This document shows positions 58,559 through 62,953 of a stretch of 64,000 nt of DNA, one piece after another. The DNA is from Natrinema versiforme (GTDB lineage: Archaea; Halobacteriota; Halobacteria; Halobacteriales; Natrialbaceae). The first letter of the stretch is position 1. Each line of letters starts with the position of its first letter. A model generated the notes under the pieces. The model was not told the origin of the DNA. It worked only from the letters and a program-made list of their open reading frames with translations, and searched no databases. The stretch is from positions 806,001-870,000 of the forward strand of contig NZ_CP040330.1 of NCBI RefSeq assembly GCF_005576615.1. Direction: 5' to 3'. The translations under genes were made by a program, and so were the position numbers.

Positions 58559-58632
58559 CCGCCCTTAGCTCAGACTGGTAGAGCAGTCGACTGTAGATCG
58601 ACTTGCCCCCCGTTCAAATCGGGGAGGGCGGA
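58559..58632 (+). tRNA. tRNA-Tyr (anticodon GUA)
   Basis: The 74-nt sequence folds as a full cloverleaf. The acceptor is CCGCCCT (58559-58565) with AGGGCGG (58625-58631), discriminator A58632. The D stem is GCTC/GAGC, the anticodon stem GTCGA/TCGAC with loop CTGTAGA (anticodon GTA), and the T arm CCCCG-TTCAAAT-CGGGG. No intron and no encoded CCA. Its 3' end is echoed imperfectly ~110 nt downstream. Confidence 0.96.
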
Positions 58633-58734
58633 TTTCTCCTGCGAACAACGTGAGCAGTGAGAAATTCATCCTGAACCGATTTGAACACGCCAGTCGCAGC
58701 GCGCGAACGGAGTGAGTGCGACCGTCTGGCATCT

Positions 58735-58752
58735 GTTCAATCGGGGAGCGGA
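58735..58752 (+). repeat. Imperfect copy of the tRNA-Tyr 3' end (possible att remnant)
   Basis: GTTCAATCGGGGAGCGGA at 58735-58752 differs from the tRNA 3' segment (58612-58632) only by small deletions, and GATTTCTC follows in both places. A degenerate tRNA-end duplication is the usual footprint of integration at a tRNA gene. The intervening copy is too short for a second tRNA. Confidence 0.45.
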
Positions 58753-58826
58753 CTCGATTTCTCGTCGAAGTCGAGCAAAGATCGAATAGATCGCAGTCTT
58801 TCGATCCGAACTCGAGCGCTCGGTCA

Positions 58827-59150
58827 TCAGTGGTCTCCGGTGGTATGGTGGGCGAGTCGGCAGTTCTTTAGTGTCCTCGAGTGGCCGTCGTAGCCGCCCG
58901 TCGGCTCGGTCTGTTGGAGCGACGAGCGCTCGAGGACATCCTCGAGGCCGGGAGTGACGTGCCAGGATTTCTGGCCGGTCGGAGTATCGACCCAGACGAC
59001 CGGCCACCCGTCGTACCAGTACCAGCCGGCGGTGTTCGGTCCCCAAGTAAGGCGGATCGCTCTCGCGAAGGCGATCGCGAGGAGATTCCGGTCGTGGTAA
59101 ACCTCGTCGGGAAGCTTCTCGTCAGTCGGTGGCGGGTTGTCTGCACCCAT
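58827..59150 (-). CDS. Accessory-genome small protein of unknown function
   Basis: The 107-residue protein belongs to a type I recall from haloarchaeal plasmids and integrated elements: LPDEVYHDRNLLAIAFARA, GWPVVWVDTPTGQKSWHV and a C-terminal YDGHSRTLKN. No function is known. It has no cysteine cluster and no membrane helix. The start ATG 59148-59150 is the first Met of the frame. It lies between the tRNA-Tyr att-like repeat and a degenerate AbrB-like gene, supporting an accessory origin. Confidence 0.65.
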   Translation of the reverse strand: MGADNPPPTDEKLPDEVYHDRNLLAIAFARAIRLTWGPNTAGWYWYDGWPVVWVDTPTGQKSWHVTPGLEDVLERSSLQQTEPTGGYDGHSRTLKNCRLAHHTTGDH

Positions 59151-59255
59151 GCTTCGATGAGACTCGAGCGCGAATGATAGCGGTCAGGAATATCATAGTA
59201 TCGTACTGGTGAAACCAATGTTTAAACAGATTCAGTACCAGTTAGGAACGTAGCC

Positions 59256-59449
59256 ATGCCGATCCACCAGTTGACACAAGTTGGTCGTACGTCGGGCGGT
59301 GTTGTGCTCCCGAAGGGCGAGCTTCGGGCGCTTGGATGGTCGATGAAGAGGGCAATGTGAAAGATCAACCAGTGCGAGTGACGCGGACTGATACGGGGAC
59401 GTGGGAAGTGTCTGTACTCGATCCGAACGACTTCCCGGGAGAGGCATAA
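59256..59449 (+). pseudogene. Frameshifted AbrB/SpoVT-like small regulator
   Basis: ATG 59256 follows a TTTAAAC TATA-like element by ~30 nt and encodes QVGRTSGGVVLPKGELRALG, the swapped-hairpin N-terminus of haloarchaeal AbrB-type proteins. A frameshift near 59342 ends that frame with TGA at 59358-59360, but the expected second half (DEEGNVKDQPVRV, then WEVSVLDPNDFP) continues in the next frame to TAA 59447-59449. A 1-bp insertion would restore a ~65-residue protein. It is therefore a recent pseudogene or a sequencing error. Confidence 0.7.
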
Positions 59450-59494
59450 AAAGCGACGGTCATTCGGGACTCCTTATACGCATAAACACAAGTT

Positions 59495-59508
59495 AGCGGT
59501 AAGTACAG
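59495..59508. repeat. 14-bp direct repeat, left copy
   Basis: AGCGGTAAGTACAG at 59495-59508 recurs exactly at 61414-61427. The two copies bracket the AT-richer histidine kinase gene and differ from each other in the bases immediately outside. They may be a target-site or recombination duplication. Confidence 0.7.
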
Positions 59509-59598
59509 TCAAAGCTGTATTGCTTATAGAGTAGACACAAATGAGGAAATATGTGAATCATGCCCTCCAAACCGACGAGATAGAACAATCCTTTCAGT

Positions 59599-61257
59599 AT
59601 GCCGTTCGTTTGGGAGGTAATGAGTGACCGGGATGTGTCAAGAAGTCCTCGGGAAGATCTCTCAGCACAACTCGAATACCGTGAAAGCGCCCTGCAAAAA
59701 GTCTCAGAAACCATCTCCAAGACTAACCAACCGTTTATAGAACAAATCGACACTCTTCTGGAAATTGTTCGCGACGTGGTCGGAACGGACTACGCGACGT
59801 TCTCATGTGTTGAGGACAACACCTATATATTTGAGGCAGTTGATGTTCCGGCCGATGCTGACCTGCAGGCGGGAGAGGCGATTCCTCTCTCGGAACTTCC
59901 AAATTGCAAGCACGTTGTCGAGACTGAACAGACGCTTGTCCTAAGGGATGTTGAAGCAGAAGCAACAGAGTTAGCAGACTCTACCTGGGGAATTGCCTGT
60001 TATCTCGGAACTCCAGTGTTCGCTGGCGAGGAGGTCTATGGGACATTTTGCTTCTACGGGATGGAGGCACGAGCGGAGGAGTTCTCTAACTGGGACGTGA
60101 CGTTCGTTGAATTCGTCAGTAACTGGGTAAATTCCCAACTCGCACAGAGAGAGCGTGAGCAATCCTTACGTGACGCCAAGTTGCAAATGGAGGCCGCAGT
60201 AGAGGCCGGTACGGTCGGGACTTGGGAATGGCACATCCCCGAAGACCAGTTCGTCACTGGGCCTGCGTTCGCCAAGACATTTGGAGTTGACCCAGCTGCG
60301 GCCCGAGAGGGCGTATCGCTCGACCAATTCGTCTCCAGAATCCACGAGGCCGACCGCGAACGGGTTAAACAGCGAATTCAGGAAACTGTTGAGTCCGGCG
60401 GTGAGTATGAGGAGGAGTATCGCGTCTGGAATGAGGACGACGAACTCCAGTGGGTCATCGCTCGTGGACACGTTGAGTGTGATGAAGATGGCAATCCAAT
60501 TACCTTCCCCGGTGCACTTATCGACATCACGGAGAGGAAACACACCGAACAACAACTAGAGGCCCTGAACAGCCGGCTGAAGCAGTCGAACAAACGGTTG
60601 GAACAGTTCGCGCACGCGGCCTCACACGATCTGCAGGAGCCTCTGCGGATGGTATCCAGTTATCTTCAGTTGCTTGATAACAGGTATGGGGACACGCTGG
60701 ACGAGGACGCCCACGAGTTTCTTGAGTTCGCCGTTAATGGCGCCGACCGGATGCGTGACATGATTGATGGACTCCTCAAATACTCGCGGGTCGAGACACA
60801 AGGTGCTCCGTTTGAACACGTTGACTTGAACAAGATACTAGCGGATGTACGAACTGACCTCCAGCGGCAAATAGAAGAAAATGATGCCCAGATAACCGCG
60901 GAGACTCTCCCCCAGGTCAAAGGGGACCCTAACCAACTGCGTCAACTCTTTCAAAACCTTGTGGAAAACGCGCTCGAATATAGCGGTGATGAACCACCGT
61001 GTGTCCACGTCTTCACCGAACAGGAGAGGAACAAGTGGATCATTGCTGTCCGTGACGAGGGTATTGGCATTGAGTCTGCTAACCAAGACAGCATCTTTGA
61101 AGTGTTCCATCGGCTGCACAGCCGTGATGAGTACGCCGGCACAGGAATTGGACTTGCGCTCTGTCAACGGATCGTTGAGCGCCATAATGGTGAGATATGG
61201 GTTGAGTCTGAGCCTGGTGAAGGATCTACGTTTTTCGTTTCACTTCCAAAGCCCTGA
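59599..61257 (+). CDS. Sensor histidine kinase, GAF-PAS-HisKA-HATPase, atypical composition
   Basis: The 552-residue protein has a GAF domain (residues ~40-190), one PAS/PAC (to DITERKHTE near 315), HisKA with ASHDLQEPLRMVSSYLQL (His343), and an ATPase with N, G1 and G2 boxes (LVENALEYS, DEGIGIE, GTGIGLAL). It shares the kinase core with the enzyme at 17.3 kb almost motif for motif, but its codons are visibly AT-richer than the rest of the window. ATG 59599 or 59620 can start it; GGGAGGT lies only 1-2 nt before the second. Flanked by 14-bp repeats and decayed genes, it is probably acquired. No response regulator is near. Confidence 0.88.
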   Translation: MPFVWEVMSDRDVSRSPREDLSAQLEYRESALQKVSETISKTNQPFIEQIDTLLEIVRDVVGTDYATFSCVEDNTYIFEAVDVPADADLQAGEAIPLSELPNCKHVVETEQTLVLRDVEAEATELADSTWGIACYLGTPVFAGEEVYGTFCFYGMEARAEEFSNWDVTFVEFVSNWVNSQLAQREREQSLRDAKLQMEAAVEAGTVGTWEWHIPEDQFVTGPAFAKTFGVDPAAAREGVSLDQFVSRIHEADRERVKQRIQETVESGGEYEEEYRVWNEDDELQWVIARGHVECDEDGNPITFPGALIDITERKHTEQQLEALNSRLKQSNKRLEQFAHAASHDLQEPLRMVSSYLQLLDNRYGDTLDEDAHEFLEFAVNGADRMRDMIDGLLKYSRVETQGAPFEHVDLNKILADVRTDLQRQIEENDAQITAETLPQVKGDPNQLRQLFQNLVENALEYSGDEPPCVHVFTEQERNKWIIAVRDEGIGIESANQDSIFEVFHRLHSRDEYAGTGIGLALCQRIVERHNGEIWVESEPGEGSTFFVSLPKP

Positions 61258-61413
61258 TCAGAGGGTATTCCTTTCAACGGCTCCCAGATCTGCATCCCAT
61301 CGGCCTTCGCCTCAGCATGATGTTCAATATGCATATAGCGTTACCGTGCTTTTCAGATAGAACCTACATGAAAAGACTGTCCGAGAAGTCAGACAGTGTC
61401 GGACAGAATCATC

Positions 61414-61427
61414 AGCGGTAAGTACAG
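61414..61427. repeat. 14-bp direct repeat, right copy
   Basis: Exact copy of AGCGGTAAGTACAG found at 59495-59508, placed ~155 bp after the histidine kinase stop. The bracketed segment is 1.9 kb. Confidence 0.7.
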
Positions 61428-61493
61428 GCGGAGGCGTTACCGCCAGCAACCGCGAGCGAACGGTGTGAGCGAGCGGGCCAAGGAACCCTCGAA

Positions 61494-61672
61494 GCCGCGC
61501 CAGTGGCGCGGCTGAGGGGGTGACGCCGTGCTTTTCATCGAAGCTAAGCGGGAGCGAAGCTCCCGCGAGGTCCGAGAGAGCGTTGCTCTCTCGAGATTTT
61601 GCCGAGGGCGCGACGGAGTCGCGCCCGCAGCGCAAAAGTTCGGTTCGCACACGTAGTTACCGCGAGCGCGGT
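61494..61672. repeat. Cluster of five perfect short-loop palindromes
   Basis: Perfect stems with 1-3 nt loops follow each other: 61494-61512 (9 bp, 1-nt loop), 61548-61566 (8 bp, loop GAA), 61573-61593 (9 bp, loop GTT), 61606-61626 (9 bp, loop GGA) and 61659-61672 (6 bp, loop AG). The stems have different sequences, so this is not a simple tandem repeat. Confidence 0.75.
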
Positions 61673-62191
61673 GTCCGAGAAGATTGATAGAGTCAAACAG
61701 AGTCGCCCCGATATCCCCCTCGAGTCCCACGAAAAACTAGATTCCCGGCGACTCTTATCCGGAATGCAGGTAACCCGGACGCCAGAAATCTGCACCGACA
61801 CGAGAACCGCGACGACATGACGGTCTGGCTCAGGCCGCACGACGGACCACAATTGTTCGAGGCGGCCGACGATACCGAGCAGCGGAGTGCGTTCGTATTC
61901 GAAGACGGAGCAAGTCAGAAAACCAGAGAGAATAGCCCGACGTGATCGGTTGCTAACCTGTACGTACCCGTTTCACTGACAAAGCAGCGCACAATGCGCC
62001 CCCTACCTCGTCCGACTCGCCTCGATCACCCGGATACCATCGAACGAGCGCGACAGCCGCGTTGATCGCGGTATCGGCGTCGCCTTCGAGACCGTTTCAC
62101 GAGCAAAACACCGTGTAGCGGTCGTTTGACAGGGGTAGCCGGGTCGAAACAATGAGTCGGTGGGCGGTCACTGCGAGTGAGACCGTTGGGA

Positions 62192-62953
62192 ATGTCAAAC
62201 CAATCAGTACACGGTTCGCGATCGTCGGCGAGGGATCGGACGGACGAACGCGAATCGACGGCGGCCGTTCGCCTCGAGGGCGTCACCCACGAGTACGGGT
62301 CGACCGGCGGGCGCTTTCGCTCGGGTGACGAGCGGACGGTGACCGCGCTCCGCGACGTCTCCTTCGACGTGCCAGAAGGGATGATCGTCGGCCTCGAGGG
62401 ACCGAGCGGGAGCGGGAAGTCGACGGTGTTACACGCGGTCGCGGGGCTGTTAGTTCCGACGAGCGGCAGCGTCGAACTGCGCGACACTGATCTCGCGGCG
62501 CTGTCCGACGCCGAGCGGACCCGGGTCCGGCGACACCATATCGGGATCGTCTTCCAGCGATTCCACCTCCTGCCGTCGCTGTCCGCCCGGGCGAACGTCG
62601 CCTTGCCGCTCGTCCAGTCCGGGGTGCCGCGAGCCGACCGGCGAGCGCGCGCGACGGCGCTGCTCGAGGAGGTCGGGCTGGGCGACCGCGCCACGCATCT
62701 GCCGGGCGAACTCAGCGGCGGGGAACGACAGCGCGTCGCGATCGCGCGGGCGCTGTCGACGGACCCGGACGTGATCGTCGCCGACGAGCCGACGGGCGAA
62801 CTTGACACGGCGACCGGGGCGGATGTCCTCGAACTGCTGACCGATGTCGGCCGCGAGCGGGCGGTGTTGGTCGCCTCCCACGACGAGGCCACGCTCGATG
62901 TCGCCGATCGGATCGTCACGCTGTGTGACGGACGGGTGGACGATGTCCGATGA
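62192..62953 (+). CDS. ABC transporter ATPase, LolD/MacB type
   Basis: The 253-residue ATPase has Walker A GPSGSGKSTV, Q-loop VFQRFHLLPSL, signature LSGGERQRVAIARAL, Walker B DVIVADEPTGELD and the H-loop SHDEATLDVA. The VFQxFHLLPxL and DEPTGxLD words are typical of the MacB/LolD/FtsE group that works with FtsX-like permeases rather than classical transport. A short basic N-terminal tail precedes the domain; ATG 62192 was chosen over an upstream GTG. It overlaps the permease gene by 11 nt. Confidence 0.92.
   Translation: MSNQSVHGSRSSARDRTDERESTAAVRLEGVTHEYGSTGGRFRSGDERTVTALRDVSFDVPEGMIVGLEGPSGSGKSTVLHAVAGLLVPTSGSVELRDTDLAALSDAERTRVRRHHIGIVFQRFHLLPSLSARANVALPLVQSGVPRADRRARATALLEEVGLGDRATHLPGELSGGERQRVAIARALSTDPDVIVADEPTGELDTATGADVLELLTDVGRERAVLVASHDEATLDVADRIVTLCDGRVDDVR

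Follow-up and report, generated by a model that had tools for sequence, protein, structure and literature searches.

A sensor histidine kinase gene as putative cassette cargo between dyad sites of a decayed tRNA-Tyr island in Natrinema versiforme

Cassette capture and shuffling are a main bacterial route for collecting adaptive genes. In the dif modules of Acinetobacter (pdif/Xer), short dyad sites enclose segments of one to a few genes (PMC13141974, PMC6449649, PMC10132070); these modules have been called unique to the genus (PMC13141974). Archaeal integrons are so far of the bacterial type, and haloarchaea are not named as carriers (PMC9668308). XerA/dif of archaea (PMC2958812; PDB 4a8e, 5hxy) relies on a 28-bp dyad of the 11-6-11 type. 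No description of a cassette system of the kind reported below was found for haloarchaea in the literature searched, which covers subscription journals thinly; papers containing the site motif as text were unrelated.

The window is the 64-kb stretch of DNA analysed here (G000:C2:806001-870000). It belongs to a genome of 4.67 Mb in 5 contigs, which is designated G000; the other G numbers designate relatives and the L numbers loci. The region of interest lies between a tRNA-Tyr gene, the sole Rfam match, and an ABC transporter gene. Its features are given below from left to right. R and L, dyad sites that open and close a module; PWM, position weight matrix.

58559..58632, + strand: tRNA-Tyr(GTA), left border of the island (ARAGORN, Rfam); it adjoins the ABC transporter in congeners.
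58798..59448, no strand: left end module, 85-90% identical to one end of related congener islands.
58827-59150, - strand: WDGH-like ORF in the left end module (Pfam WDGH, below cut-off).
59255-59448: short AbrB-like coding remnant in the left end module (AbrB label by own reading).
59495..59523, + strand (27-bp dyad at 59497-59523): R1, AG|CGGTAAGTAC-AGTCAAA-GCTGTATTGC, made of the first 14-mer and a weak arm, bounding the kinase module on the left.
59599..61257, + strand: cargo, 552-aa soluble sensor histidine kinase, GAF-PAS-HisKA-HATPase_c.
61321..61346, - strand: L1, inverted partner dyad, right end of the kinase module (PWM score 23).
61378..61405, + strand: core site A copy 1, TGTCCGAGAAGTCAGACAGTGTCGGACA, 28-bp dyad.
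61414..61442, + strand: R2, AG|CGGTAAGTAC-AGGCGGA-GGCGTTACCG, second 14-mer plus weak arm.
61416..61662, + strand: R2..L2, non-coding module of 247 bp.
61637..61662, - strand: L2, TTCGCACACGTAGTTACCG end (PWM score 34).
61672..61699, + strand: core site A copy 2, TGTCCGAGAAGATTGATAGAGTCAAACA, the site upstream of the recombinase gene itself.
61787..61904, + strand: ~195-aa tyrosine recombinase, decayed N-terminal part (tblastn, query residues 2-39 at 63%; intact homologues in congeners).
62177..62953, + strand: ATPase of an ABC transporter, bordering the island on the right.

The initial annotation had proposed that exact 14-bp direct repeats flank the kinase gene. Both copies of AGCGGTAAGTACAG are indeed exact and on the same strand (59495-59508 and 61414-61427); no further copy with up to 2 mismatches was found elsewhere in the 64-kb window, and shuffled sequence gave a mean of 0.13 matches. 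In the whole genome the 14-mer occurs 7 times exactly and once with 1 mismatch, for about 0.02 exact copies expected. The repeat is thus real and extends beyond the kinase pair. The other genomic copies also lie at module ends; therefore their number does not refute the proposal that the kinase gene is a single-gene unit. This gene, the one credible gene between the repeats, is the cargo of a one-gene module that runs from R (59497) to L (61346) and carries no transposase.

The proposed coincidence of a composition shift with the repeats was partly borne out: 59495-61427 has 51.7% GC for 65.2% in the window, but the borders of the shift do not match the repeats. The DNA to the left of the first 14-mer (58633-59494) is already at 44-59% GC; to the right of the second, the 247-bp module is at 65.6% and is followed by ~58.6% up to 62170. 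The low-GC tract is the entire tRNA-Tyr to ABC-transporter interval and not the 14-mer span only.

Alignment of copies from many loci shows that AGCGGTAAGTACAG opens a 27-bp dyad, R, CGGTAAGTAC-(AGGnnAA)-GnAGTTACCG. L is a related site in the opposite orientation, CGnTCAGTTC-(GCACAC)-GTAGTTACCG, which closes the module. Each 14-mer is half of an R dyad, which does not fit a simple insertion between two 14-bp repeats. The kinase unit does not end at the second 14-mer: the module stops earlier, at the inverted L site (61321-61346), which is separated from this 14-mer by a 69-bp spacer that includes a 28-bp core site. Target-site duplication and the microhomology-mediated insertion suggested initially are both rejected, because the repeat sits in a 27-bp dyad conserved at many loci. 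The suggestion of site-specific insertion was right in that the module ends appear as junctions of site-specific recombination and wrong as to a plain insertion with 14-bp direct repeats. Taken as a whole, the idea of a single-gene unit inserted site-specifically was largely right.

Two of the checks proposed initially concerned relatives. Neither an empty site with one 14-mer nor a kinase-free version of the exact kinase-module junction was found for this locus. The 14-mer was also to be looked for around related kinases; the best homologue (77% nucleotide identity, G022) has no flanking site, which rules out a kinase that always travels with the repeat and is as expected if the gene was captured from an ordinary chromosomal copy. 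Most kinase homologues are members of a large family and reside on chromosomes or plasmids.

When as many as 3 mismatches are allowed, the pattern CGGTAAGTAC-N7-GTAGTTACCG is found in 26 of 29 congeners (~160 matches, for 1 with the reversed control). Elsewhere in the order it is thin: with 2 mismatches allowed, 16 of 195 genomes have it, and some of these are themselves Natrinema. By the weight matrix, the sites of the window are R at 59497, L at 61346, R at 61416 and L at 61662, i.e. in alternating orientation. Adjacent R/L sites alternate 117:40 (p 6e-10, motif-chosen loci). BLAST homology between loci ends inside R/L sites in 90 of 634 cases, against 9.4 for random sets (maximum 19 in 500 sets). 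Homology ends on the strong-arm side show a sharp peak at site base 12-13, directly after CGGTAAGTACAG. Two plasmid arrays of G024 (L185, L186) are 94% identical over 1,120 bp that span two modules, and they part company at base 13 of an R site. The loci used for PWM training and for the alternation and breakpoint tests were picked for holding the motif, so that locus-based counts describe site-bearing loci and not whole genomes; the pattern counts made over whole genomes against reversed controls (R/L, core A) are free of this selection. Contigs of some relatives are fragmented. No conserved copy of a single chromosomal dif that could be the parent of R/L was identified; weak-arm variants were found at several loci.

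It is very improbable that an AT-richer gene was merely acquired near dispersed repeats, by chance or by ordinary homologous recombination and with no specific mobility. In favour of such an origin, the kinase family is very common in the genomes searched and the interval at tRNA-Tyr is a hotspot of variable length (0.5-27 kb), but 7 exact 14-mers for 0.02 expected, strict orientation rules and breakpoints at sites all argue against it.

Most R..L modules consist of one gene, on either strand, that fills the module; some are gene-free. Their cargo includes kinases, transporters, enzymes, lipoproteins and small regulators; the module of L213 (G011) carries a 1,030-aa multi-PAS kinase. A membrane transporter module is common to a plasmid of this genome (C4) and the chromosome of G015 (93%): as for dif modules, the same module is found in different contexts with its junctions at sites. 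The L..R modules are of 51 bp, ~105 bp or larger, and two of them carry the ~195-aa recombinase.

The R2..L2 module of the window (61416-61662) is palindrome-rich; its R end recurs at G000:C2:25129, C2:1574163, C3:467578 and C4:412280. An AspBHI/Mrr-type restriction endonuclease is cargo of another island of the same genome (L063 3994-5145, G000:C2; L211 1349-2686), with a 94% identical copy in G041 (Natrinema ejinorense contig). Elements of 1.9-2.2 kb with inverted L-type ends were found at L190 (824-3001), L199, L207, L208 and L210; they encode a conserved ~298-aa protein (MSSNNSSSKVVTVDEQ...) with no assigned function.

The L-to-R pieces (cores and larger elements) could instead be MITEs or insertion sequences that end in terminal repeats of ~12 bp, CGGTAAGTACAG; the kinase gene would then be chromosomal DNA caught between two insertions. 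This is improbable. Left-shared homology does stop exactly after CGGTAAGTACAG, as terminal repeats would have it, and some L..L elements (0.77-2 kb) have inverted ends and occur in several copies. However, the sequence outside the 12-mer is conserved too (27-bp dyad), no target duplication flanks the elements, R..L modules that carry genes are met again beside different neighbours with the same breakpoint base, and inspection of ORFs and flanks revealed no transposase at module ends.

The second type of site, core A, is a 28-bp dyad, TGTCCGAGAA-N7-AGAGTCGGACA, found 104-132 bp upstream of the start of the ~195-aa recombinase gene in Natrinema and in further genera, among them Natrialba, Halostagnicola, Salinadaptatus, Natrarchaeobius and Natronococcus. 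In the more distant relatives from Salinarchaeum, a diverged dyad is read here at the matching upstream place. Among the matches listed, 88 core A sites occur in 24 of 29 Natrinema genomes, with 0 in controls. Neighbouring cores within 6 kb are in the same orientation in 31 cases and in opposite orientation in 0, with a spacing mostly of 0.3-3.5 kb; at the recombinase loci of the genomes named, extra cores lie only upstream of the recombinase gene and in the same orientation. Recombinase-side homology between loci begins at core base 0-1, and a 749-bp cassette (96.4%) common to two species (G022 and G002) has both ends within cores. A second recombinase subfamily (44-48% identical; L288-L291, L299, L300) has its own dyad, TGTCCGCGAA...TTCGAGGACA, at the matching place; recombinase subtype and site subtype go together. 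The ~195-aa enzyme matches Phage_integrase (PF00589, 8.4e-18), and its catalytic residues R46, K73, H140, R143, W166 and Y176 (R-K-HxxR-W-Y) are invariant. Among solved structures, XerA proteins and IntI4 are closest to it.

The core alone could be the crossover site of an integron-like array, R and L being accessory arms and L-core-R an analogue of attC. In agreement with such an array, the cores stand in direct repeat (31:0), the recombinase gene is linked to them, and the strong arms of L and R are mutually complementary around the core. It is nonetheless unlikely: in most families, A-type arrays included, homology breaks in R and not in the core; R/L sites occur with unrelated cores or none (51-bp junctions); and they are present in genomes without the recombinase, such as the site-rich G008, G019 and G021, which lack the ~195-aa enzyme. 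Single-strand folding of L-core-R was not consistently better than that of shuffles (z -0.2 to -2.8, six units). Two site systems are superposed: cores in direct repeat, which go with the small recombinase, and alternating R/L. By the breakpoint evidence, core and R/L are both true junctions.

The neighbours tRNA-Tyr and ABC transporter are found in congeners with a gap of ~0.5 kb (G011) to 27 kb (G021). Positions 58798-59437 match one end of islands found at other places in the genus (85-90% identity), and 61652-61904 match the opposite end of those islands (~80%); related islands include G000:C2:2831298-2835287 and that at the same tRNA site in G009. The interval of the window holds pieces of an integrative element. 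In intact islands the right end is the ~195-aa tyrosine recombinase; in the window a decayed N-terminal fragment is all that is left of it. G044 is the closest of the relatives compared; its orthologous locus has an intact recombinase and the left module of the window, with other cargo, and no kinase match was found there. In most islands the homology of left end modules extends only to about the AbrB-like stop codon (59401-59494; L307 near 5190), and a GGGACTCCnTAT motif after this stop is common to the window and G044. The 3' end of the tRNA-Tyr (58609-58640) is partly repeated ~120 bp downstream (58728-58760); an older integration event here left this partial repeat as an att-like remnant.

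The preferred reading, given a probability of roughly two in three, is that the kinase gene is cassette cargo, bounded by R and L, within a decayed tRNA-Tyr island, and that its module was likely moved by tyrosine-recombinase strand exchange. Tyrosine recombinases would perform site-specific strand exchange at the island sites: R/L sites would serve for the excision and joining of whole modules, and the ~195-aa recombinase would exchange gene-sized segments between directly repeated cores. Recombination of R1 with R2 would remove the kinase gene together with core copy 1. Core exchange is presumed to be catalysed by the ~195-aa recombinase and R/L exchange by the same enzyme or a host Xer-type enzyme; the kinase gene would have arrived by the cassette route. 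Sequence comparison shows the sites, their orientation rules, junctions exactly at the sites, the linkage of recombinase type with core type, and modules shared in different contexts. Counting against this reading, the weak arm of R1 is poor, 59449-59494 to the left of R1 belongs to no other site family, the recombinase of the window island is ruined, and the exact junction was not found in an empty or kinase-free state. Moreover, none of 30 loci of two site-rich genomes (G008, G019) has a recombinase with R/L directly upstream, and the site-rich G008, G019 and G021 are devoid of the ~195-aa enzyme.

The putative cassette system was found in nearly all Natrinema genomes searched, and the recombinase in several other genera. 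The chances are about even that haloarchaea own a cassette platform made of a catalytic-domain-only recombinase with an upstream 28-bp site, single-gene arrays, and nested alternating R/L sites that move modules between chromosome and plasmids, recombinase and site subtypes being matched. If so, it would be to archaea what integrons and dif modules are to bacteria; a native haloarchaeal system would help to explain the highly mobile gene content of haloarchaeal megaplasmids and tRNA islands, and offers concrete sites and a small recombinase for study in tractable haloarchaea.

The likeness to Acinetobacter dif modules lies in segments of one to a few genes, short dyad sites that alternate in orientation, shuffling between replicons and modules without a recombinase. 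The site sequences are unrelated to those of Acinetobacter, the host is an archaeon, the Natrinema spacer is of ~6-7 bp with weak arms that differ between R and L, and a directly repeated core and a module-borne recombinase are added. Because the sites differ and there is an extra recombinase, the island is not classed as an Acinetobacter dif module. As in integrons, the recombinase has its own upstream site and reads away from single-gene cassettes separated by direct repeats; unlike integron integrases, it has the size of a catalytic domain (~195 aa), and cargo lies on both strands. The recombinase scored 36.9 bits with the IntI model TIGR02249 (cut-off 265); the island is not classed as an integron, this score being far below the cut-off; the folding z ranged from -0.2 to -2.8. 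The 28-bp 11-6-11 dyads are like those of archaeal XerA/dif, but the sites are multi-copy and mobile whereas there is one chromosomal dif, and the recombinase lacks an N-terminal domain and scores far below the cut-off of the XerA model. Neither an integron nor a dif module by strict test, the cassette island is both integron-like and dif-module-like.
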